From Sediminitomix flava (GTDB lineage Bacteria; Bacteroidota; Bacteroidia; Cytophagales; Flammeovirgaceae), in the NCBI RefSeq assembly GCF_003149185.1, contig NZ_QGDO01000001.1, positions 248,001 through 312,000 on the forward strand: a stretch of 64,000 bases of DNA. Direction: 5' to 3'. Shown in pieces: positions 32,704 through 58,651 of this stretch. Position 1 is the stretch's first letter; the number at the start of each line of letters is the position of its first letter. Position numbers and translations under genes: made by a program. The notes below the pieces were generated by a model that saw only the letters and a program-made list of their open reading frames with translations, ran no database searches and was not told where the DNA came from.

Positions 32704-33612
32704 ATGACTAGAGATAAAAAGCAGATTTTCCGTATCATTCGAATGATTCAGGACTTGTCTCGTTCTGAATACACAAGGAAAGAGTTAGAAAAACGCTATG
32801 GGGTAGGCAAGACACAAATACATAATGACTTCTTAACCATTGAAAAACTTCTTTACCCCGAATGTATCCAAAGCAGAACAATGTCAGGTTCGAGGGCTTT
32901 TTTATACAGTATCGATGACAAATACAAACTGAATATAAATACTTTCTTAAGTAGAGAAGAAGAGAAAGTCTTGTTAAGTGCTGTTCACCAACTAGAGCAG
33001 GAAGAGGTATATCATAGCATTAAGCGAAAACTCAAACAGTTTTCCACACAGATATGGACACAAATCACGACAGACTTAGACAAAGAAAATAAGATAGCCT
33101 TTGCCGTGACAAAAGGCTATTGTATCTCTCTGAGAGATTATGAAGCTCCTTCAACAAATACAATAGAAGATTATGAAATAGAACCTATAAAGCTATTTGA
33201 TGGAGGAAGAAGATTATATGCTTATGATTTAAAAAGTAAGCAACTCCTAGACTTTAAACTGACAAGAGCCGGTGCCGTAGAAATAACAAAACAGGAGATC
33301 AAACACCAGCATTTATATCAAGACCGTTTTCACGATGCCTTTGGCTGGTCTTGTGAAATAGGAAAAGAAATACCCATACAATTTGAAATGGACAGGCTTG
33401 CTGGGCGAATGATTCAAGAAAACTACCCTGATGTAAAGATCACTTCAATTCATAGGATTGATGGTGTTTTTATCTACCAGTATAAAGGAAAAGTAGCAAA
33501 CTATAAAGGTGTTGGTCGTTTTGTTCTTAGTCTACCGAGTCACATTCGAAATATACAGCCACAAAGTCTCAGAGACTACCTATTAGACCAAATGGGAAAG
33601 TATTTAGTGTGA
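32704..33612 (+). CDS. WYL-domain transcriptional regulator of the CRISPR locus
   Basis: A 302-aa protein. The N-terminal HTH (RIIRMIQDLSRSEYTRKELE, RYGVGKTQIHNDFLTIEKLL) is typical of the YafY/PafB group. The middle and C-terminal parts form a WYL-type ligand or nucleic-acid-sensing domain (IEPIKLFDGGRRLYAYDLKS) and an extension with beta strands. It is 203 bp upstream of cas6 on the same strand. A WYL protein has been reported to repress the type I-D locus of Synechocystis, so control of this cas operon is the obvious hypothesis. The ligand is unknown. Confidence 0.85.
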   Translation: MTRDKKQIFRIIRMIQDLSRSEYTRKELEKRYGVGKTQIHNDFLTIEKLLYPECIQSRTMSGSRAFLYSIDDKYKLNINTFLSREEEKVLLSAVHQLEQEEVYHSIKRKLKQFSTQIWTQITTDLDKENKIAFAVTKGYCISLRDYEAPSTNTIEDYEIEPIKLFDGGRRLYAYDLKSKQLLDFKLTRAGAVEITKQEIKHQHLYQDRFHDAFGWSCEIGKEIPIQFEMDRLAGRMIQENYPDVKITSIHRIDGVFIYQYKGKVANYKGVGRFVLSLPSHIRNIQPQSLRDYLLDQMGKYLV

Positions 33613-33815: not shown

Positions 33816-34616
33816 ATGACAGAATACAGCATTTTGTTCAAGCAAGTGAAAGGAAGTCATTGCATTAGCTATAACATAGCATTTGTATTATCCCAAGCAC
33901 TGAATAAAAACATTGGGAAAGTTGATCCTAAAGCGGGAGATTTTGCACATAACGAAGGACATAAAGGCGGACATCGCAACTTCAAGCTTTGGACACATAG
34001 CATCATGCCAAAAGCCTACGATGTATTGACAGAAGGAATGCTTTTACAAGGTGAATATTTATTGGAATGGAGGGTCCGTTTCTATGACAGATACTTAGCT
34101 AAAGCTTTTGAAAAAGCACTAATCCTTTGTCCTGAGTGGGAGATTGTAGATAGATTTGGGATACATCATTGGCAAATTATCAAAAGTGAACCTGTACTTC
34201 ATCAGCCTTCTTTTAACCCTGTGATGTCTTATAAATTGATTACACCTGCGGTGATTTCTATACCACATCAGAAGACCAGAAAACCATTTTATCTGACTTT
34301 CAGAGATCATAAGGAGCTTATTCCTGCACAAATTCAAAAGCATTTGCAAAATAAGGCACAGACACTCTACAATTTGGGTGCGGCACGAGATGGAATGGAG
34401 GAAGGCTTAGAAGACATGAGCTTTAAACTCTTGAATACTCCAAAGACAAAAAGGCTCACCTTCAAAGAAACACAGAATTACTCTCAAAAGGTATTTGCCA
34501 ATCAATTTGAGTTTGAATTGATAGCTCCTGTGGAGGTTCATAAACTTATTTACTATGGCGGTTTTTTAGAAAAAACAGCTCGGGGATGTGGATTTTTAAA
34601 AATACGAACATCATGA
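33816..34616 (+). CDS. cas6: CRISPR endoribonuclease Cas6
   Basis: A 266-aa Cas6 that cuts the CRISPR transcript within each repeat and probably stays with the crRNA. Two ferredoxin-like halves are expected. The C-terminal glycine-rich loop GGFLEKTARGCGFLKI (248-263) is diagnostic. A histidine-rich N-terminal segment (AHNEGHKGGHRNFKLWTHS, about 44-62) could supply the catalytic His. It heads a cas operon; its TGA overlaps the cas10d ATG (ATGA), indicating translational coupling. The family call is secure from the loop, the size and the neighbours. Confidence 0.9.
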   Translation: MTEYSILFKQVKGSHCISYNIAFVLSQALNKNIGKVDPKAGDFAHNEGHKGGHRNFKLWTHSIMPKAYDVLTEGMLLQGEYLLEWRVRFYDRYLAKAFEKALILCPEWEIVDRFGIHHWQIIKSEPVLHQPSFNPVMSYKLITPAVISIPHQKTRKPFYLTFRDHKELIPAQIQKHLQNKAQTLYNLGAARDGMEEGLEDMSFKLLNTPKTKRLTFKETQNYSQKVFANQFEFELIAPVEVHKLIYYGGFLEKTARGCGFLKIRTS

Positions 34617-37507
34617 ATCAGCACAAGAAATTAAAATTTGAGACAGGTACTCCCCTGTTTACAACAGAGCTATTCAATAAGGTATTTGATGATTTTCTTG
34701 ATAAAGTCATTCTTGCTCTAATCGAGGAAAAGGAAGGAAAAAAGATAGGTGGAATCATTGAGGCAAAAGGCTATTTTGAAAAGAATGGAGTCCGTTACAT
34801 AGGATATGACCAACCTTATCATATCCATATCCTGCAAGGTATGATTCCCGCGATGTTTCTTCTGGAGCATACGTTTAAACACAATGGATGGATCAATACA
34901 GAAGAAGGAGAATTGTATTTGAAACTCTTTGTGTTGGGCTTCTTTTGCCACGATGCGAATAAACTGATGTCGTCCTTCAATAAGGACGGAGAAGACGAAA
35001 AGAGCCTAGAACAAGCCCTAAAAGAAATGAAAGGTGAAGAGTTTATAAGTTCTTTAGGGATGGGTGACTTCTTCCCTGAAACGTCTTCCTATTTGGAAGA
35101 TATTGAATACCTCGCCTTGATGGCGGAGCATCGAACGTCTATGATCTCATTTGGTAAAAGTACCAAACTTTCCCAAACTCAGCTATTAGATAAATTAGCT
35201 CCGTATGTGCGCATAGCGGATAGAATTGCTTCGGCAGGTGGTTCGGTTATTGAATATTGGAACGAGAAAAAACAAATTTGGGAGCAGAAAGACAGCAAAG
35301 GGCATGATGATCAATATCAGAATATTAGTACGCTCTATCAGTACATCAAAAAGGAAGTCGATACACTCGGAACAGATTTTCCTCCTTTGTCTTATGTCCG
35401 TATTCAGCAAAATCCTTTTAGCCTGCTTTCAGATCTGATTCTAAGACAAACAGCAAAGATCTTGGAAGCTGATGGCATACATACTTTCTCTTTTATGAGA
35501 GATGGCTTTTTATATTGGGGAGAAGCTTTGACAGCGAGTCAAATAGAATGTATTAGAGGAACTCTAACAAAAGCTACAGAGAAAGGGGTTGATGTTATAA
35601 AGTTGACAAAAGTAGATTCTCAATCCTGTAATTTCGGATTTATTGGTGATATCCCTTTCTCCAAAAAAGTTTGGGAAAAGCTAATCAAGACTAAGGCTGA
35701 TTCATTCTTACAGATTGCACCCAACGGTTTGGATAAGCTTTCTGATAAAGCAATGAAAGATCTTATTAGTTGTATTGAGCAGTTAACAGAGCTATATGAC
35801 TTACCTATACAACAACCCAAGCTTGATGATAAAGGGAAACTGTATTTACGCTTTTCTGAAGACTGGGATGAAGACGAAGAGACTTTTAAATTTGTCAATT
35901 TATTTTGTTTGGTTAAATCTCGATGGATGAATGCCAAGATAAATAAAGCTTGGGATACGGAATTCAAAGAAAAATTAATCTCAGGTACTACATTCTATGA
36001 GGAACATGCACTCATCTTCGAAGAAGCCGAGCAGAAGGTGATCACCTATTCAAGGTTAAATGCTCACTTTGGAGGATTGATTGACAGACCCGCCAATATT
36101 TTGAAAATGTTATTGGCCTTGGTTGAAGCGATTAAAGCCCTTGAAGATGATGAAGGAAACTGTTCTGAAGACTGGTTCACAGATCTAGTAGGTGTCTTAG
36201 ATAAGCCTTCTGAAAAAGTACAAAGCACGCCAATTATTGAAGTATTTGAACACTATTTTGATTACAATGGGAATTTGTTGAATCGAAATTGGATAGATCA
36301 AATTGCGTCAATTCCTACTTCAGACAAAATTTGTGTCTTTACGGGTAGGCCTGCTACTAAGCCTTATAAAGAAGTCAATGCTTATGGGTTAGGTGCAAGA
36401 GGTTTTACAAAAAGGAGTAATACGACATTAAAGAATACAATTTCCTACGTCTCTGATGTTGCTGATGCAGAAAACAAGGCACGAAAGAATTTCTCGGACC
36501 GAGTGAAAGCAAACTCAGCGATCTATATGGACTTCTGTGAATCTTTTGGTGGGACAGTCTTCGATTGGAATTTTTTCAAGGAAATCGCCAAGAAAAAAGG
36601 TTTTAAGAGTGAACTAAGCAAAACCAATAAAGAGGAAGTGATCATGCTCAATAAGTCTGCTCAACTCAATCAAAATAAGTTTGCTTATGAATTGACTGAG
36701 GTGGGACGAGATTTAAAGAGTCAGGTTTTCTTGGTGAGAAATCACCTTGAATTAGCTGTCAAAACAGGTCTGCGGACTTATATAACTTCGATTATGGGGG
36801 AGTATAGACCACATAAAGAAATCTTTGTCTATGAACAGGCTCCCGCCTTTATTCAAAACTTAGGGTGGAACCGAGTACACTTGGTACATGCTTCAGCCAT
36901 TTTCAAGGAGGTTGCAATGTGTTTAGAACTGTTTAAGCACGGAAAAAATTTGGATACGGGTCTGATGACTCATTATTCAAATGACCGAAATATCATTTTC
37001 CAAGCCTACTATCAATTTGTATCGGGAAATGAAAAATCCGCAAAATCCATAAAAGAGAAAATCAACAATTTTATAGAAGAAAATCCTTTAAAACTGAAGT
37101 ATATGAGTGTTGTATCAGAATTAGCAGAAATCGCCTTGAGAATCCGTACAGCTAACAAAAACTTTAACCAAGAAAGTGAGCTTTTCCGATTGGCATTGGA
37201 TACGATGAGGGAGGAATTGAGACATGAACAATCTAAAGAAGATGTGATTGAGCGTATCACTGGTGAACTCTTCAAAAAAGAAAGGTTGGAGTATATGGGC
37301 AAAGACAAGAAACAGGCTTGTTCAGATTTTGCAACAAAGATGTACGAAGGACTTTTAGAAAAAGAATGGAAAGGGCAATTCCCATCACAAAACCGTGAAC
37401 GTAGAATTTTGTATCAATTTGCTTATCTCTATAGTGTCAAGGTCGATAAACTAAGAGCCCAACGAGCAGAAGAGAAGAAGCATCAGAAAGTACAGGATGC
37501 GAACTAA
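34613..37507 (+). CDS. cas10d: Type I-D large subunit Cas10d (Csc3) with HD nuclease domain
   Basis: I start at the ATG overlapping the cas6 stop (ATGA); an earlier in-frame ATG at 34586 lies within cas6. It has 964 aa. The N-terminal HD domain carries His70/His72 (QPYHIHILQG), His113-Asp114 (FFCHDANKL), His173 (AEHRTSM) and Asp203 (RIADRIAS). In type I-D the nuclease sits here rather than on Cas3. The middle (from about 570, KICVFTGRPATKPYKE) is a Csc3-like body without a GGDD cyclase motif. The C-terminal 196 aa are all-helical and could be made separately as Cas11d from 36917. It is followed after 59 bp by csc2. Confidence 0.9.
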   Translation: MNQHKKLKFETGTPLFTTELFNKVFDDFLDKVILALIEEKEGKKIGGIIEAKGYFEKNGVRYIGYDQPYHIHILQGMIPAMFLLEHTFKHNGWINTEEGELYLKLFVLGFFCHDANKLMSSFNKDGEDEKSLEQALKEMKGEEFISSLGMGDFFPETSSYLEDIEYLALMAEHRTSMISFGKSTKLSQTQLLDKLAPYVRIADRIASAGGSVIEYWNEKKQIWEQKDSKGHDDQYQNISTLYQYIKKEVDTLGTDFPPLSYVRIQQNPFSLLSDLILRQTAKILEADGIHTFSFMRDGFLYWGEALTASQIECIRGTLTKATEKGVDVIKLTKVDSQSCNFGFIGDIPFSKKVWEKLIKTKADSFLQIAPNGLDKLSDKAMKDLISCIEQLTELYDLPIQQPKLDDKGKLYLRFSEDWDEDEETFKFVNLFCLVKSRWMNAKINKAWDTEFKEKLISGTTFYEEHALIFEEAEQKVITYSRLNAHFGGLIDRPANILKMLLALVEAIKALEDDEGNCSEDWFTDLVGVLDKPSEKVQSTPIIEVFEHYFDYNGNLLNRNWIDQIASIPTSDKICVFTGRPATKPYKEVNAYGLGARGFTKRSNTTLKNTISYVSDVADAENKARKNFSDRVKANSAIYMDFCESFGGTVFDWNFFKEIAKKKGFKSELSKTNKEEVIMLNKSAQLNQNKFAYELTEVGRDLKSQVFLVRNHLELAVKTGLRTYITSIMGEYRPHKEIFVYEQAPAFIQNLGWNRVHLVHASAIFKEVAMCLELFKHGKNLDTGLMTHYSNDRNIIFQAYYQFVSGNEKSAKSIKEKINNFIEENPLKLKYMSVVSELAEIALRIRTANKNFNQESELFRLALDTMREELRHEQSKEDVIERITGELFKKERLEYMGKDKKQACSDFATKMYEGLLEKEWKGQFPSQNRERRILYQFAYLYSVKVDKLRAQRAEEKKHQKVQDAN
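36905..36911 (+). promoter_or_regulatory. Internal Shine-Dalgarno within cas10d
   Basis: AAGGAGG lies 5 bases before an in-frame ATG (36917-36919). Strong Shine-Dalgarno sites are otherwise not seen before the cas genes here, which makes it stand out. Confidence 0.6.
36917..37507 (+). CDS. cas11d: Candidate Cas11d small subunit, internal start in cas10d
   Basis: In frame with cas10d (codon 769), an ATG preceded by AAGGAGG would give a 196-aa, mostly alpha-helical protein. It starts MCLELFKHGKNLDTGLMTHY and ends in a basic, coiled tail (KVDKLRAQRAEEKKHQKVQ). Internal translation of small subunits from the large-subunit gene has been shown experimentally for type I-D and other type I systems. 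The size and position fit that precedent. There is no separate small-subunit gene in the operon. The call is an inference from sequence; expression of the short product is unproven. Confidence 0.6.
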   Translation: MCLELFKHGKNLDTGLMTHYSNDRNIIFQAYYQFVSGNEKSAKSIKEKINNFIEENPLKLKYMSVVSELAEIALRIRTANKNFNQESELFRLALDTMREELRHEQSKEDVIERITGELFKKERLEYMGKDKKQACSDFATKMYEGLLEKEWKGQFPSQNRERRILYQFAYLYSVKVDKLRAQRAEEKKHQKVQDAN

Positions 37508-37566: not shown

Positions 37567-38514
37567 ATGCAATCTATATTTGAAAATATTCCAGCTCAAT
37601 TATTCCGTACAAACCTAAAAGAGAACAAAACAGGTGTGTTCAAAATTGCTTTGGTCAGAGAAGTGACAGGCACTCTTATCAATCGAAGTAACTTTGCAGA
37701 TGAAACCATCACTTTTCGGACACAAGAAGGAAAAACATTGATAGAAATCCCTGCACGGAAATTAAAAGCGCCTGAAAAATTGACAGGTCTAAAGTTGTGT
37801 CGCCAAACAAACTCAGTAGATGAAGAAGTACGCTACAATGTCATAAAAGACAGTAAACAACTTGCAAACCCAAACTCTATTCTATTTGGAGATTCTGTAA
37901 CGGCTTCAGGTGATGCCGTCGGTATAAAATCTCGTGTAATTTATGATTGGACATATTCGATCCGTCCTTGTGATGATTTGGTAGATACTCTCCAACACAA
38001 TGCCCTTAGCGAAGGAGGAACCATGTATGATGAGGAAGAAGGTAAGCTCAGACAATCCTTGTTTAGGGTGCAATATATCATGCCTCAAACCTATTTCCCT
38101 CATTTTATTACAATCGAAAATGCAACACCCGAGCTATTGTTCCATTTACTCTCATCGATTGTCTTTACGCAAAGGTATGGTGCGCAAACAACAACTACAG
38201 GCAGTAATATCCGCAACCATATTGTAGCCTTAGGTTATGATGCCACAGAAGCTCCATTAAATAGTTTTACCTTTTCCAATGAGTGGAACCAAGAAGAGGC
38301 TGTCAACTTAGAGAATGTCAAAGAAAAGATGCTTTCGAAGATGCAAAGCTATTACGGCAAACAACTGATACAAGGTGAAGAATTGGAAAGCCAAATCAGA
38401 GGTGCATGGAAAGAAGATCTTACAGAAAAGTATCAAATGCTTCAAGCTAAGTGTGAGGAATATCTAAAAGAGATCAAGGTGATTTCAACAGCAAAAGGAA
38501 AGAAAGGCAAATAA
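37567..38514 (+). CDS. cas7: Type I-D backbone subunit Cas7 (Csc2)
   Basis: A 315-aa protein that would line the crRNA in several copies. Diagnostic Csc2 segments are present: NPNSILFGDSVTASGDAVGI, KSRVIYDWTYSIRPCDDLVD, GGTMYDEEEGKLRQSLFRVQ, MPQTYFPHFITIENATPELL, QRYGAQTTTTGSNIRNHIVA. These establish subtype I-D rather than I-A, I-B or III. It ends in a helical basic tail. It lies 17 bp upstream of csc1 and 59 bp after cas10d, within one operon. Confidence 0.95.
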   Translation: MQSIFENIPAQLFRTNLKENKTGVFKIALVREVTGTLINRSNFADETITFRTQEGKTLIEIPARKLKAPEKLTGLKLCRQTNSVDEEVRYNVIKDSKQLANPNSILFGDSVTASGDAVGIKSRVIYDWTYSIRPCDDLVDTLQHNALSEGGTMYDEEEGKLRQSLFRVQYIMPQTYFPHFITIENATPELLFHLLSSIVFTQRYGAQTTTTGSNIRNHIVALGYDATEAPLNSFTFSNEWNQEEAVNLENVKEKMLSKMQSYYGKQLIQGEELESQIRGAWKEDLTEKYQMLQAKCEEYLKEIKVISTAKGKKGK

Positions 38515-38531: not shown

Positions 38532-39185
38532 ATGAAAATATATGCATTAAAACTGACACTCCTCAATCACCTGTTCTATTTCACGGAGTCTACCAATGGT
38601 TCCCGAACAGGTGATTTTATAGGTGATTTGGCACTAACTTATGCTTTCCGACCTTGGCTTGCTCCAACTGATGAAGCAATTCCATTTCGGGCTAAACCCG
38701 AATATGAAGAAATCGCAGATTGGGGATTTTACTGTACACTGGCGATACCGCAAAAAACGAAGCCAACAAATGTATACGCTCGGAATACGCTTTTCCATGC
38801 AGATGGCATGTATGATAAGCCTAGTTTTGAAAGTGCGGCTAAATCCCCTTTCAAAAGCTTTTTCCACGTACAGGGTATCCAAGCCACTTCAGAATTCCAT
38901 TGTTTCTTGATCGCAAAAGAGGAGGTTAAACTCCCCCCAACTATCCGAGTAGGCAATGGAAAGGAAACCTTGGTCAAGGTCGAAGAAATTGATAGGGATA
39001 AGCAATCATTTTGGCTTAATGCTTTTACCCACAAAAAAGTATTCAACAATCTGGAACAGGTCGCTGACTTGATGATTGACAAAGGCATACACGACAGGCA
39101 ATATGTTTTAGAAAACTATATCCTGTTGAAGGGTTTTGATCAATCCTATTTAGAGGAAGTTTTTGAGCCATTATTTAGTGCTTAG
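38532..39185 (+). CDS. cas5: Type I-D subunit Cas5 (Csc1)
   Basis: A 217-aa protein expected to bind the 5' tag of the crRNA. The RAMP fold start MKIYALKLTLLNHLFYFTES is followed by the Csc1-typical GDFIGDLALTYAF, then YARNTLFHADGMYDKPSFES and a beta-hairpin SFFHVQGIQATSEFHCFLIA. The first element is the Csc1 counterpart of the opening RAMP strand and the igNyALtYA segment. It lies 17 bp after cas7 and 65 bp before the cas3' ATG. Confidence 0.88.
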   Translation: MKIYALKLTLLNHLFYFTESTNGSRTGDFIGDLALTYAFRPWLAPTDEAIPFRAKPEYEEIADWGFYCTLAIPQKTKPTNVYARNTLFHADGMYDKPSFESAAKSPFKSFFHVQGIQATSEFHCFLIAKEEVKLPPTIRVGNGKETLVKVEEIDRDKQSFWLNAFTHKKVFNNLEQVADLMIDKGIHDRQYVLENYILLKGFDQSYLEEVFEPLFSA

Positions 39186-39250
39186 AGAAATTGAAGGGCT
39201 GTCATTTGGATTGCCCTTCTTCCAAGAATCTAAAAATTGGCAATAAAAAC

Positions 39251-41281
39251 ATGGAGCAATTTCAAATTACCATACCGCCTCAATATGTACAACAAGTACA
39301 ACAAACCGCCTTGTTCAAGCGTCCTGACTCCCCCGAATTTGAAGGGAGAATGCACGAGATACAGCGTGTTATGAGAGACGATTTTGACAAATTACCTCTT
39401 ATTACAGAAGTAATAGCCCCGACAGGAACAGGTAAATCCTATGCCTTTGCCTTTCCGACTCTGAAAGCCAAACAAGAAAGACAAGTACAAAGAAAAGCAC
39501 TGCTTGTATTGCCTACGAATGTTCTGATTGATGAGCTGTATGAGGCTTTTTCTGCGATGTTCACAGAACTCAAAATAGTCAAGGCGACAAAAGAAACTTT
39601 GGATAAGATGGAAGCTAAAGGAAGTTACAAACGTTGGCAGGCAATTAGTGAAATGGCAGAAACGGCAGATATCATGATTACTAACCCTGATATTCTCAAT
39701 TATGCTATGCTGGGGGGGTATGATAAGCATATCTTCAAGGACAGTAAACTATCAGGAGGAAATACTTATTGGCATTTCCTAAAGAATTTTCAGTATATCA
39801 TTTATGATGAATTTCACCTGTACCGTGAGGAACAGATCGCATCCATTTTCACAATGATTGAGTTGAGAGAATGTTTTATCAATGATTCGGCTCGATTCTT
39901 TTTTGTGACGGCAACCCCTGAAGAAGAAATTACACATTTTCTGACAGAGCGAAATTACCGTTACCAAAGTATCTCTGAATGCCTATCGTCTTCGCCAACA
40001 ATGGAAGCGAAGCTTCCTGCAGTCTTCACAAGATTGGAAGAAACCGTTACGCAATCTCCAGAAGAATCACGTTGTATTCATGGAGAATTGACCATAGAAT
40101 TTGTCTTGTCCGATTCTGTGGGAGAGGTTTTGACATATAAAGAAGAAGAGCTGAAAGCCCAGAAGGAACAAGATATCCGTTCCTTATTAATTCTAAACTC
40201 ATTGGTAGATATACAGCGTCTGTATTTTCAATATAAGCCTAGTTGGCAAAACACCCACAGGCTGAGCGAGGTTTCCGGTTATTTCGATGAGGGTTATCAG
40301 CAGGCGGACATTATTTTCTCGACTAGTAAATCAGAGGTCGGGGCAAACTTTGGGGTGGATTATACCATCATGCAATCGGGTTTTGATTACAGAAGTTTCT
40401 TGCAACGTTTTGGTAGAACGGCAAGAGGGGAGATGAAAGGGAAAATAGTCATCTTTTTCTTGAAACAGAGAGAAGAAAAAAAACAATTCAATAAGCTGAA
40501 AAAGCTCTTTTCAGTGCAAGAAGAATGGGGCTATAACTCCTTTACAAAGACCGTAAAGAGTGTACTTCAGAAACCTGAATTTTATACTAATAAGATCAGT
40601 CCGTTTATGGGGCAATATCTCTATGCGGTTTATCACAATGCGGGGCGCTATAATTATGATACTAGAGAGTATATCCGTAACCGTATTATTGAAATGGATA
40701 TGCCTGATATTCAAAGAGGGCAGTTCAAGTTTTTTCAAATTATAAATGCTTCTATTGTTCATCTAGGAAAGGGAGGGTATGCAAGACAATGGCAAGAATG
40801 GTGGGAAAAGTATCTTGATTCTTACCTCTCTTTTAGGGGATCAAGTCTTCATATTTCGATCAAAGATATGGAGCGAAACGGGCAAATCTTTAGCTATTCA
40901 AAAGAATGGGTCTTACGCAACAAAGCTATTACAGACATCTTGGAAGGACAGGCTCCTGATGGAAGGGACTTGTTTGTTGTAGAAGGTCTTAGGGAGAAAC
41001 AAGACAATGAGTTATTGTATGAATCTGATACGATTCCTTCAGTAGGAGCTATGCAGAATCGCTTCTTTGAAAGGAAACACAAAAGCAATCAACGAATGCG
41101 TAAACAATTATTTTTGGGAGCACTCAAAAATATCGAAAATGGAAATGAGGGTATCGATAGTTTCTATGACAAACAAGAAGAGTTATTGGAAAAACTAGAA
41201 GGTTTAGCTCCGTTTTTTACAGAAAAGAGGCTAAATATTATCGGAGTTCAAGGAAGTGATGGCCTCTCTGTTATTTTCTAG
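39251..41281 (+). CDS. cas3: Type I-D helicase Cas3' (no HD domain)
   Basis: I use the ATG at 39251 (MEQFQITIPPQYVQQVQQTA); the open frame extends upstream only with a non-ATG start. It has 676 aa. SF2 helicase motifs are complete: APTGTGKSY (Lys62), DEFH at 186-189 (IIYDEFHLYREEQ), TATPEEE, and QRFGRTARG (385-393). No HD motif is found at either end, consistent with type I-D, where the nuclease resides on Cas10d. It is the last cas gene; the array begins about 35 bp after its stop. No cas4, cas1 or cas2 follows. Confidence 0.92.
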   Translation: MEQFQITIPPQYVQQVQQTALFKRPDSPEFEGRMHEIQRVMRDDFDKLPLITEVIAPTGTGKSYAFAFPTLKAKQERQVQRKALLVLPTNVLIDELYEAFSAMFTELKIVKATKETLDKMEAKGSYKRWQAISEMAETADIMITNPDILNYAMLGGYDKHIFKDSKLSGGNTYWHFLKNFQYIIYDEFHLYREEQIASIFTMIELRECFINDSARFFFVTATPEEEITHFLTERNYRYQSISECLSSSPTMEAKLPAVFTRLEETVTQSPEESRCIHGELTIEFVLSDSVGEVLTYKEEELKAQKEQDIRSLLILNSLVDIQRLYFQYKPSWQNTHRLSEVSGYFDEGYQQADIIFSTSKSEVGANFGVDYTIMQSGFDYRSFLQRFGRTARGEMKGKIVIFFLKQREEKKQFNKLKKLFSVQEEWGYNSFTKTVKSVLQKPEFYTNKISPFMGQYLYAVYHNAGRYNYDTREYIRNRIIEMDMPDIQRGQFKFFQIINASIVHLGKGGYARQWQEWWEKYLDSYLSFRGSSLHISIKDMERNGQIFSYSKEWVLRNKAITDILEGQAPDGRDLFVVEGLREKQDNELLYESDTIPSVGAMQNRFFERKHKSNQRMRKQLFLGALKNIENGNEGIDSFYDKQEELLEKLEGLAPFFTEKRLNIIGVQGSDGLSVIF

Positions 41282-41316: not shown

Positions 41317-44298
41317 CTTATTTTTTTACCAGAATGGTGTTATGACCTTGACATCTATATGGAATCGGTACGCGAGAACTTATGTAATCTTTACCAGAAT
41401 GGTATTCTGACTTCTTATCCTTTTCCCCAAAGTCGTTGAATTTGTCATGTAATCTTTACCAGAATGGTATTCTGACGATACTTCCTTCCATGTGAAGTTT
41501 TGAAGTAACGGCATGTAATCTTTACCAGAATGGTATTCTGACGTACCTCTTGACCAGATGTTAGTGTTCTCCTTTGCATGTAATCTTTACCAGAATGGTA
41601 TTCTGACTGAATATATCAAAGAGAATGTAATCCTTGAAACTTGATGTAATCTTTACCAGAATGGTATTCTGACGTTGTAGACTCTACATAGTTCTCACTT
41701 TCTTCTGTAATGTAATCTTTACCAGAATGGTATTCTGACGATAATTGAATTGTCTTGCTGATCTGAAGTTTAAACATGTAATCTTTACCAGAATGGTATT
41801 CTGACTTGTTTATCAACCGTAAATCAAGAACCCCAATTGGATGTAATCTTTACCAGAATGGTATTCTGACTCACTAAACATGGATACAATAGAAATAGTA
41901 TCTAAGATGTAATCTTTACCAGAATGGTATTCTGACGAGCCTATGCTTGAGGAATATGGGTTTAGAACTCTTATGTAATCTTTACCAGAATGGTATTCTG
42001 ACTAATAAGCCCCTGAAGACCTGCAATAGATTCGCTATTATGTAATCTTTACCAGAATGGTATTCTGACATGATTGCCATTTCTTGTCATTCGCTTTTTA
42101 TGGAAATGTAATCTTTACCAGAATGGTATTCTGACAACGAAAGAGGGCTGTTTTGCTAGTAAGCCCTTTAGATGTAATCTTTACCAGAATGGTATTCTGA
42201 CCTGCCCTGCCTCATGAGTTGAACCTTGCGAGTGCTATGTAATCTTTACCAGAATGGTATTCTGACCCCTACGAATGAATACAATCTCATTACCCGAAAG
42301 ATATGTAATCTTTACCAGAATGGTATTCTGACGCGTTAATCCACGATGCATTTATATTAATTGCATTATGTAATCTTTACCAGAATGGTATTCTGACAGA
42401 GATCTAACACCGCTATAAAATCCTTTCCATCATGTAATCTTTACCAGAATGGTATTCTGACATAATTCGGAGTGGTAAAAAAGTATATTTAATTTGTGAT
42501 GTAATCTTTACCAGAATGGTATTCTGACGAATCTTTCCCCATATGTTTATCTAATTGCAGGTGAATGTAATCTTTACCAGAATGGTATTCTGAACCTTGA
42601 TCATCGACAGGCACTTGCCCGTTTGTAGAATGTAATCTTTACCAGAATGGTATTCTGACTTGCCTCCAACTGCCTTACAAGCTCCCTGCCCGAAATGTAA
42701 TCTTTACCAGAATGGTATTCTGACTTGTAAATTTGAAGCCTTACAATGTTGAAAAAAGCATGTAATCTTTACCAGAATGGTATTCTGACTGAAATCTAGT
42801 AATTTGAAAAGGTGCATCCTCGCTAATGTAATCTTTACCAGAATGGTATTCTGACGTTTATAACGGTGAGACGGATAATACTTCTACGGTATGTAATCTT
42901 TACCAGAATGGTATTCTGACAAAGCAGCTCCTAAAGCAGCAGTAAGAAGAAAGCAAATGTAATCTTTACCAGAATGGTATTCTGACTGTTCTGTCTCGAT
43001 AATGAGTGCGCAATGCTCTTCATGTAATCTTTACCAGAATGGTATTCTGACATGATTGCCATTTCTTGTCATTCGCTTTTTATGGAAATGTAATCTTTAC
43101 CAGAATGGTATTCTGACAACGAAAGAGGGCTGTTTTGCTAGTAAGCCCTTTAGATGTAATCTTTACCAGAATGGTATTCTGACGCTTCCATAAATGGCTC
43201 ATGTCCAATCCCCAATACGATGTAATCTTTACCAGAATGGTATTCTGACCTGATTAATGGAAGTGTAATACCTTTCATTAGTCTTATGTAATCTTTACCA
43301 GAATGGTATTCTGACTTAATTAAATTCTCATACGGTAATATATATAGAGGCATGTAATCTTTACCAGAATGGTATTCTGACTCGGGCATTTCCATGACAT
43401 CTAGTTTTGTCATGTATGTAATCTTTACCAGAATGGTATTCTGACTGTTATAACATGTCTGCGGCATCGTGGTGGGTTGGAATGTAATCTTTACCAGAAT
43501 GGTATTCTGACTATTGACTTTGCATTTTATCAATTTTGACATTTGCATGTAATCTTTACCAGAATGGTATTCTGACTTTGATATGTCTATTGTTCAAAGT
43601 GTGACATATAAAATGTAATCTTTACCAGAATGGTATTCTGACTATTTTATTTCTGCGACAAGTGGTTATGACGTTGTATGTAATCTTTACCAGAATGGTA
43701 TTCTGACTTGTGAAAAGACTTCAAATGTCCCCAGCGTTGATTGATGTAATCTTTACCAGAATGGTATTCTGACTGATGATATAACCAAGGCATGTTTTGA
43801 ATATTTGGAATGTAATCTTTACCAGAATGGTATTCTGACCTTATGAAAACTGCACTGTTGTTAGCTCTTCCTCTTATGTAATCTTTACCAGAATGGTATT
43901 CTGACACGGATAGTGAATGGGCACAGAAGTGGGGTAAGAAAATGTAATCTTTACCAGAATGGTATTCTGACTGGGAATAGATTTTCTTTTCCATTTCGTC
44001 GGCTTCTATGTAATCTTTACCAGAATGGTATTCTGACGTAGTAGACTCTACATAGTTCTCACTTTCTTCTGATGTAATCTTTACCAGAATGGTATTCTGA
44101 CCTTCTAAACCTTGCTATTTGGTCTATTTGGAAGTATATGTAATCTTTACCAGAATGGTATTTTGATTTTTAGGAATGATGACCGACTAAAATAAGTTGA
44201 CCATGTAATTTTGACCAGTATGATATTATGACTTGCCCAACTCAGATAAATTGCCAATACTAAAGACAATGTAACTTTACTAAGTTCTACATAATATT
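41317..44298 (+). CRISPR. Type I-D CRISPR array: 43 good 30-bp repeats plus 3 decayed ones
   Basis: Forty-three repeats (41382-44167), all but two of them identical as far as I read them, alternate with 42 spacers of 34-37 bp. The 30-bp unit starts ATGTAATC, has a hairpin TACCAGAATGGTA in the middle, and ends ATTCTGAC. The exceptions are a last-base change in the copy before 42596 and three changes in the 44138 copy. Degenerate repeats flank it at 41317 on the left and at 44203 and 44269 on the right. On the plus strand the hairpin leaves an 8-base ATTCTGAC tag before each spacer, like the usual ATTGAAAC. I therefore infer left-to-right transcription, same as cas. Only 35 bp separate cas3' from the first decayed repeat, so a leader is short or absent. 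Confidence 0.97.
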
Positions 44299-58099: not shown

Positions 58100-58218
58100 T
58101 GCTAATTTTAGGACGTTTTCATCGAAGATTTCATCGAAAAACTGACTTTAGATAACAAAAAAAGCCCCAAATCGCCATTTTAGAGGCATTTTGGAGCTAA
58201 GTGGTACTCGGGGCGGGA
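58100..58218. repeat. attR: right copy of the imperfect 119-bp direct repeat
   Basis: The core 58169-58218 is identical to 30932-30981. It covers the tRNA terminator arm and loop, the CCA end, the acceptor strand and part of the T arm of tRNA-Leu. The preceding 69 bp are partly conserved with the left copy, including TGCTAATTT and the TCATCGAA sites at 58119 and 58131. Confidence 0.9.
58160..58198 (-). terminator. Terminator of the tRNA-Leu cluster
   Basis: On the minus strand AGCTCCAAA pairs with TTTGGGGCT (one G-U pair), with an inner GCC/GGC stem, then seven T. It lies mostly inside the att repeat, so the integration event duplicated the terminator as well. Confidence 0.8.
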
Positions 58219-58288
58219 ATCGAACCCGCACGGTATTGCTACCACTGGATTTTGAATCCAGCGCGTCTACCAGTTCCGCCACCCGAGC
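58202..58288 (-). tRNA. tRNA-Leu (CAA), copy 1, att-containing
   Basis: A class II tRNA with a long variable arm. The anticodon loop is TTCAAAA (anticodon CAA) on stem CTGGA/TCCAG. The acceptor GCTCGGG pairs with CCCGAGT. The T loop is GTTCGATTCC. CCA is encoded in the DNA, unlike copy 2. Its 3' end (to 58218) is the island att core. Confidence 0.95.
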
Positions 58289-58330
58289 AAGGTGATAATA
58301 TGGCTTTAAAGTAACTTTAGAGTTGTTTTG

Positions 58331-58414
58331 TACCTGGGGCGGGAATCGAACCCGCACGGTATTACTACCACTGGATTTTGAATCCAGCGCGTCTACCAGT
58401 TCCGCCACCCAGGC
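58331..58414 (-). tRNA. tRNA-Leu (CAA), copy 2
   Basis: Nearly identical to copy 1 in the body. The acceptor stem is GCCTGGG/CCCAGGT and one variable-arm base differs. CCA is not encoded (ACAA follows). Confidence 0.95.
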
Positions 58415-58445
58415 AAAAATCTCTAATGTAATCAATAAAGGGTTG

Positions 58446-58529
58446 TACTTCGGGCGGGAATCGAACCCGCACGGTATTGCTACCACTGGATTTTGAATCC
58501 AGCGCGTCTACCAGTTCCGCCACCAAAGC
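58446..58529 (-). tRNA. tRNA-Leu (CAA), copy 3
   Basis: Same body and anticodon. The acceptor stem is GCTTTGG/CCGAAGT with one G-U pair, the most divergent of the four. Confidence 0.94.
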
Positions 58530-58567
58530 ATTTGCAAAGACCGTTTGTCTTTACTTTTTTAAGGTAG

Positions 58568-58651
58568 TACCTGGGGCGGGAATCGAACCCGCACGGTATT
58601 GCTACCACTGGATTTTGAATCCAGCGCGTCTACCAGTTCCGCCACCCAGGC
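58568..58651 (-). tRNA. tRNA-Leu (CAA), copy 4
   Basis: Acceptor GCCTGGG/CCCAGGT as in copy 2. It is the promoter-proximal member of the cluster. Confidence 0.95.

Follow-up and report, generated by a model that had tools for sequence, protein, structure and literature searches.

The original report of the internal translation of Cas11d, the small subunit of type I-D CRISPR (clustered regularly interspaced short palindromic repeats) systems, is said to be that of McBride et al. 2020. Passages of PMC9123187 and PMC10212523 treat this internal translation as established. As PMC9123187 describes in part, Synechocystis Cas11d is the C-terminal domain of Cas10d produced from an internal in-frame start, and two copies of it are found in Cascade. 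Here we analyzed a 64,000-nucleotide window of Sediminitomix flava (contig NZ_QGDO01000001.1, positions 248,001 to 312,000 of the forward strand; all coordinates below are those of the window). It contains a divergent Bacteroidota type I-D system, whose large-subunit gene cas10d lies at 34613..37507 on the plus strand. An earlier note had proposed that the motif AAGGAGG inside cas10d is a Shine-Dalgarno (SD) site, from which Cas11d is translated starting at ATG 36917 (Met769). Our results suggested that Cas11d is probably made from within cas10d at another codon, ATG 37103 (Met831), without an SD, and that the AAGGAGG is incidental and unread.

The locus shares its gene set (cas3', cas10d, cas7d, cas5d and cas6) with the type I-D system of Synechocystis sp. 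PCC 6803 (plasmid pSYSA; 7SBA/7SBB). A small subunit formed by the C-terminal domain of Cas10d with an internal start, as solved in Synechocystis, is what we propose here. Unlike in Synechocystis, the upstream signal contains no SD-like AAGGA, cas6 is the first gene, and cas1, cas2 and cas4, which are typical of type I-D but not defining, are missing from this part of the window. Moreover, the Cas10d of the window was matched by none of the Pfam/NCBIfam Cas10d models. The locus on plasmid pAT6 of Aureibacter tunicatorum (NZ_AP025311.1) has the same order, WYL-cas6-cas10d-csc2-csc1-cas3', with a Cas10d that is 51% identical and a Met831 in an A-rich context, whereas AAGGAGG plus ATG at the 36905/36917 site exists in the window only. 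The pAT6 Cas10d (L032, 5495-8317) is annotated as 'hypothetical protein', and the lineage escapes both the Pfam and the NCBIfam Cas10d models. In the open subset of PubMed Central, no study was found on Cas11d or internal starts in Bacteroidota type I-D systems, the SD-free version included.

Conservation was examined in 18 sequences: 17 belong to Bacteroidota, and L024 comes from a Planctomycete metagenome-assembled genome. They comprise the 16 usable loci among 17 detected by a GTDB genome scan, the A. tunicatorum plasmid and the window. L030 was excluded because it has only 70 residues, and L010-L012 because they are duplicate records of L016, L017 and L021; L061, 85% identical to L024, was kept outside the 18. 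Five of 13 plasmid records (H7, H9, H10, H13 and H14) were used together with pSYSA. The viral_contigs scan gave no relatives, an additional profile search across 395 genomes from the phylum matched the own genome solely, and a class-level search added one weak partial match (L013, E 8.5e-4). Met831 was present in all 18 sequences. Met769 was found in the window only and was missing from all 17 others.

The sequence context of the start codons was scored by a position weight matrix covering -20 to -1, for whose training 261 starts and 2033 internal Mets from the same genome, outside the window, were used (held-out area under the curve, 0.87). For this matrix and for the SD statistics below, the first ATG in each long open frame was taken as the gene start, irrespective of annotation. 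The own start of cas10d scored 4.28. The stretch 5' of Met831 (ATCCTTTAAAACTGAAGTAT, 37083..37102, plus strand), the proposed SD-free initiation region, scored 3.85, which was the top of the 20 internal in-frame ATGs and reached the 99.3rd percentile of internal Mets and the 73rd of starts. The corresponding score of Met769 was -2.75 (47th and 4th percentiles). The A-rich, SD-less context of Met831 scores like true starts, and this signal is weaker when synonymous variation only is considered. Met831 was the best-scoring internal ATG in 13 of the 18 sequences, and it still ranked first in 6/9 when one sequence per 60%-identity cluster was used (Fisher p 2.4e-4). Local mRNA structure across the homologues was low at 831 (mean percentile 0.88, versus 0.32 at 769 and 0.46 at 728). 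In a blind scan of 866 alignment columns, in which codon identity was ignored, the top ten positions all fell within residues 820-831, and Met831 ranked 4.

Another conserved methionine, Met728 (ATG 36794), is Met in 17/18 sequences, and its context in the window reaches the 95th percentile of internal Mets. A Cas11d beginning there is scarcely credible, however, since the context is unremarkable across homologues (mean rank fraction 0.30), the mRNA structure is average, and the product would include most of the Thumb. Met728 was rejected as the Cas11d start on homologue context and mRNA structure.

The position of Met831 also agrees with the protein structure. The full-length Cas10d model matched 7sba_I (Foldseek E 3.1e-16; VIA-align Z 17.3, root-mean-square deviation (rmsd) 7.6, 740 aligned). 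Synechocystis Cas11d (7SBA chain J) has 146 residues and begins at residue 830 of the 975-residue Cas10d. The model of the 196-aa product (mean predicted local distance difference test score, 84) was aligned to 7sba_I by VIA-align with Z 16.1 and rmsd 3.3 over 183 residues, placing model residues 1..184 on chain residues 758..975. Met769 thus equals residue 758 of 7sba_I and lies 72 residues ahead of the solved Cas11d start. It also corresponds to residue 646 of S. islandicus Cas10d (6yes_B, VIA Z 9.1), in which the Thumb spans 624-719 and the Cas11 domain 720-847, as given in passages of PMC7689449. By these modelled alignments, Met769 is in the Thumb and outside the Cas11 domain. In the full-length model, Met769 is within helix 757-776, and Met831 is the first residue of helix 831-842, so that the proposed start codon, kept in 18/18 sequences, coincides with the Cas11 domain boundary. 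The idea that the helical C-terminus matches the small subunit therefore holds for the 134-aa Cas11 domain, but not for the first ~62 of the 196 residues, which are Thumb. Other searches returned less for this region. A PDB sequence search with the window protein alone gave no match, an alignment-profile PDB search reached 7sba_I solely through the N-terminal half, and Foldseek with the C-terminal model gave none at E <= 0.001 (best, 6yes_B at 0.14). The C-terminal assignment rests on VIA-align, and the free chain 7sba_J is not among its rows.

Several results weigh against a start at Met831. The context at 831 is largely set by amino acids: on synonymous resampling the mean z was 0.62 for context (14/18 positive) and 0.73 for mRNA structure (15/18 positive), the window's own context z was -0.06, and a synonymous-only scan placed Met831 at rank 12/860. 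An internal Met scoring at least 3.85 is owned by 14/251 genes of the genome. The equivalence of 831 with Synechocystis residue 830 was drawn from the domain boundary, because the structure alignment reports end ranges only, and the profile alignment of the Bacteroidota and cyanobacterial C-terminal regions was poor (probability 4.4), so 831 was not reliably paired. In the window, the mRNA around 769 is less structured than that around 831 (-0.8 versus -2.8 kcal/mol). In favor of the AAGGAGG site, the calculated anti-SD pairing energy of the cas10d motif, -11.9 kcal/mol, matches that of the rpsU SD (-11.7 kcal/mol), and few of 2349 internal Mets have one as strong. A standard anti-SD tail was assumed for these energies, since the strain's own 16S 3' end is absent from the assembly (neither an Rfam RF00177 search nor a 3'-end pattern search located the 16S rRNA). 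Finally, Met831 may be kept for structure.

This last point leads to a different explanation, in which the small subunit does not exist as a protein of its own, the Cas11 domain works solely as part of Cas10d, and Met831 has a structural role where a helix begins. The invariance of Met831 in the protein and its amino-acid-dictated context are what such a case would look like, and a Cas11 domain is indeed present in cis in type I-D Cas10d (described in part of PMC7689449). We regard this explanation as unlikely, since the solved I-D Cascade contains two free Cas11d (PMC9123187, in the passages on the complex) and since signals for initiation are found at the homologous codon in other hosts. The latter were detected by listing start codons preceded by at least 5 nucleotides of SD in the last 260 codons. 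Seven sequences from outside the Bacteroidota (L024, Synechocystis, Gloeothece, Picosynechococcus 7117, Stanieria, Pseudanabaena and Chlorohelix) gave 7 such matches, of which 5 are located 0 to +4 codons relative to the Cas11 start; no match came from Stanieria or Pseudanabaena. The 17 Bacteroidota sequences gave 5 matches, none at the Cas11 start (0/5), the window's being at -62. In the Planctomycete L024, AAGGAGGTG ends 6 nt ahead of the Met831 codon, and it is retained letter for letter in a second Planctomycete genome (85% identical; the 1 match in 391 others searched), although synonymous identity around it is not unusual in this pair (rank 230/858). An SD-like motif together with a start codon no more than 4 codons from the Cas11 start is present in Synechocystis, Gloeothece, Picosynechococcus 7117 and Chlorohelix. 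The residue aligned to Met831 is not Met in some cyanobacteria, with the reservation that the linker alignment of the more distant ones is uncertain; Met is therefore not required at this position as a residue.

Taken across hosts, it is reasonably likely that one internal cas10d start has been kept across phyla and is served in each by the host's own initiation signal: Planctomycetes, Cyanobacteria and Chloroflexota would rely on an SD, and Bacteroidota on an SD-less stretch that is A-rich and unstructured. Synechocystis cas10d also contains GGAGGTA-ATG at codon 786 (L033, 6880-6889), 44 codons ahead of the solved Cas11d start, with a spacing that looks too short for use.

If AAGGAGG recruited ribosomes to ATG 36917, Cas11d would be the product of the open reading frame 36917..37507 (plus strand; 196 aa, 23.3 kDa). 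The motif, spacing and frame on which this relies are real: AAGGAGG occupies 36905-36911, is followed by the spacer TTGCA and ATG 36917-36919, and is in frame with the cas10d ATG at 34613, the internal ATG being codon 769/964 with 196 codons to the stop at 37507. Strong pairing with the anti-SD and open mRNA, as given above, also favor it. Conservation does not. Loss of the SD in close homologues had been named beforehand as a refuting result, and both the SD and the ATG are absent from the nearest homologue, Aureibacter, where the aligned site reads GAT GAA ATA GCA CTA TCA ATG, with no SD and with an ATG two codons after the aligned codon. The site is kept in 0/17 homologues. Nor is the motif more frequent than chance, as the 6.6-Mb genome contains 102 cases of AAGGAGG-N4-9-ATG (39+63) versus 129 (62+67) of the reversed pattern. 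In a 464-kb sample, AAGGAGG at -18..-5 of an internal in-frame Met was seen in 2/2349 cases. The motif spells Lys-Glu-Val codons; AAG GAG has a probability of about 0.07 as the spelling of Lys-Glu in this genome, and Glu766, one of the residues that the motif encodes, does not vary across the 17-sequence alignment. Another AAGGAGG with ATG lies within 1.1 kb, inside csc2 (38012-38025), which also points to chance for the cas10d motif. The occurrence of AAGGAGG at 36905 is most likely coincidental, a by-product of the Lys-Glu-Val codons. With a start in mid-helix of the Thumb, 72 residues too early, and a genome without SD use, translation of Cas11d from this site is quite improbable; Met769 was rejected as the start on conservation, genome-wide counts and structure, and ATG 36917 is probably not the Cas11d start. 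The general idea of an internally translated Cas11d is thus supported by our results, with a different start codon and without the SD signal.

The use of SDs in this genome was evaluated on 464 kb. The 5-mers of AAGGAGGT preceded 7/300 gene starts, versus 9/300 and 7/300 mock windows, and a 4-mer test gave 16/300 starts versus 19 and 19 mock. Applied to 50 kb of E. coli, the 4-mer test gave 20/40 starts versus 1 and 1 mock. Because there is no excess at starts over mock windows, we conclude that this genome does not use SDs. Consistently, passages of PMC9976891 report that the anti-SD of Bacteroidia ribosomes is sequestered in a pocket formed by bS21, bS18 and bS6; the AAGGAGG at 36905 would go unread because the anti-SD is hidden. 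It is true, as had been pointed out, that no SD is visible in the 20 nt upstream of cas6, csc2, csc1 and the WYL gene. SD-less cas genes are the norm here, so the internal motif is not made special by contrast. More generally, a perfect SD in a Bacteroidota gene carries little information.

One gene of this genome does have a strong SD-like sequence. AAAGGAGG stands ahead of the ATG of rpsU (L031, 1480-1494), and bS21 of this genome retains Tyr54. In Flavobacterium, bS21 feedback through the rpsU SD has been described (PMC9976891, in part), and judged from sequence the two features found here appear to fit this known autoregulation. The situation resembles that of Flavobacterium johnsoniae, with a strong SD-like sequence in a genome otherwise without SD use. 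The rpsU SD is conserved and at a gene start, whereas the motif in cas10d lies inside the gene and lacks conservation. These parts of the feedback, together with the similar pairing energies of the two sites, would allow both cas10d starts to be used, ATG 37103 normally and ATG 36917 by a minority of ribosomes that lack bS21 and have a free anti-SD. We consider such double use very improbable: the site is present in one genome only and the motif occurs at chance frequency genome-wide, and the published rpsU SDs are mostly longer.

From the observed conservation, start context, structure mapping and absence of SD use, we infer that Cas11d is produced from Met831 and joins the complex. The 3' part of cas10d would contribute to two translation products: the Cas11 domain at the C-terminus of Cas10d, and a free Cas11d. 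Ribosomes would initiate at ATG 37103, 186 nt 3' of ATG 36917, without an SD and in the same A-rich, weakly structured context as at the ordinary genes of the genome. The proposed cas11d (37103..37507, plus strand) would encode a basic protein of 134 aa and 16.0 kDa (isoelectric point 8.9), which may line the belly of Cascade together with Cas7d, the arrangement described for Synechocystis. If so, Bacteroidota would have a programmed internal start that works without an SD in a gene already under translation, and nature would have run its own experiment on how initiation signals are re-wired after gene transfer. Such a start would give a clean test of start selection within a translated gene by ribosomes that do not respond to SDs. 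For anyone expressing this Cascade, the small subunit would be 16 kDa, not 23 kDa.

The other genes of the locus are all on the plus strand, in the operon order cas6, cas10d, csc2, csc1 and cas3', with a CRISPR array adjoining. A probable WYL-domain regulator (32704..33612) is at the head; its Pfam WYL match (E 0.0098) is below the cut-off, and its pAT6 homologue is annotated WYL. The gene cas6 (33816..34616) matched TIGR01877 with E 3.4e-14 and 53.8 bits, just below the cut-off of 58.65, and Pfam Cas_Cas6_C above the cut-off; its stop overlaps the ATG of cas10d (ATGA). Cas10d consists of an HD domain, a degenerate polymerase, the Thumb and the C-terminal Cas11 domain. Assignment to type I-D is based on csc2/cas7d (37567..38514; TIGR03157, E 1.1e-30) and csc1/cas5d (38532..39185; TIGR03159, E 4.4e-14), both above the cut-offs, on a separate cas3' helicase gene without an HD domain (39191..41281; TIGR03158, E 1.5e-32, above the cut-off), and on the HD nuclease domain of Cas10d (fold match to 7sba_I and 6yes), whose motif His113-Asp114 is invariant in the 17-sequence alignment. 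The listed cas3' frame begins with TTG, with an in-frame ATG shortly after.

In the CRISPR array (41382..44101, strand not assigned), a 30-nt repeat occurs in 41 exact copies, and degenerate ones lie at either end. Cas1 is absent from the whole genome (99% complete; the control search was positive in 9/14), in a genome-wide search that covered Cas1 and not Cas2/Cas4. Given the long array without Cas1, adaptation may have been lost or may be supplied from outside. The array block 42040-42201 has an identical second copy at 43022-43183, and 41644-41707 has one at 44008-44071 (98%); since these blocks occur at second positions, spacer blocks have been duplicated. Elsewhere in the window, four tandem tRNA genes are located on the minus strand at 58205-58651.

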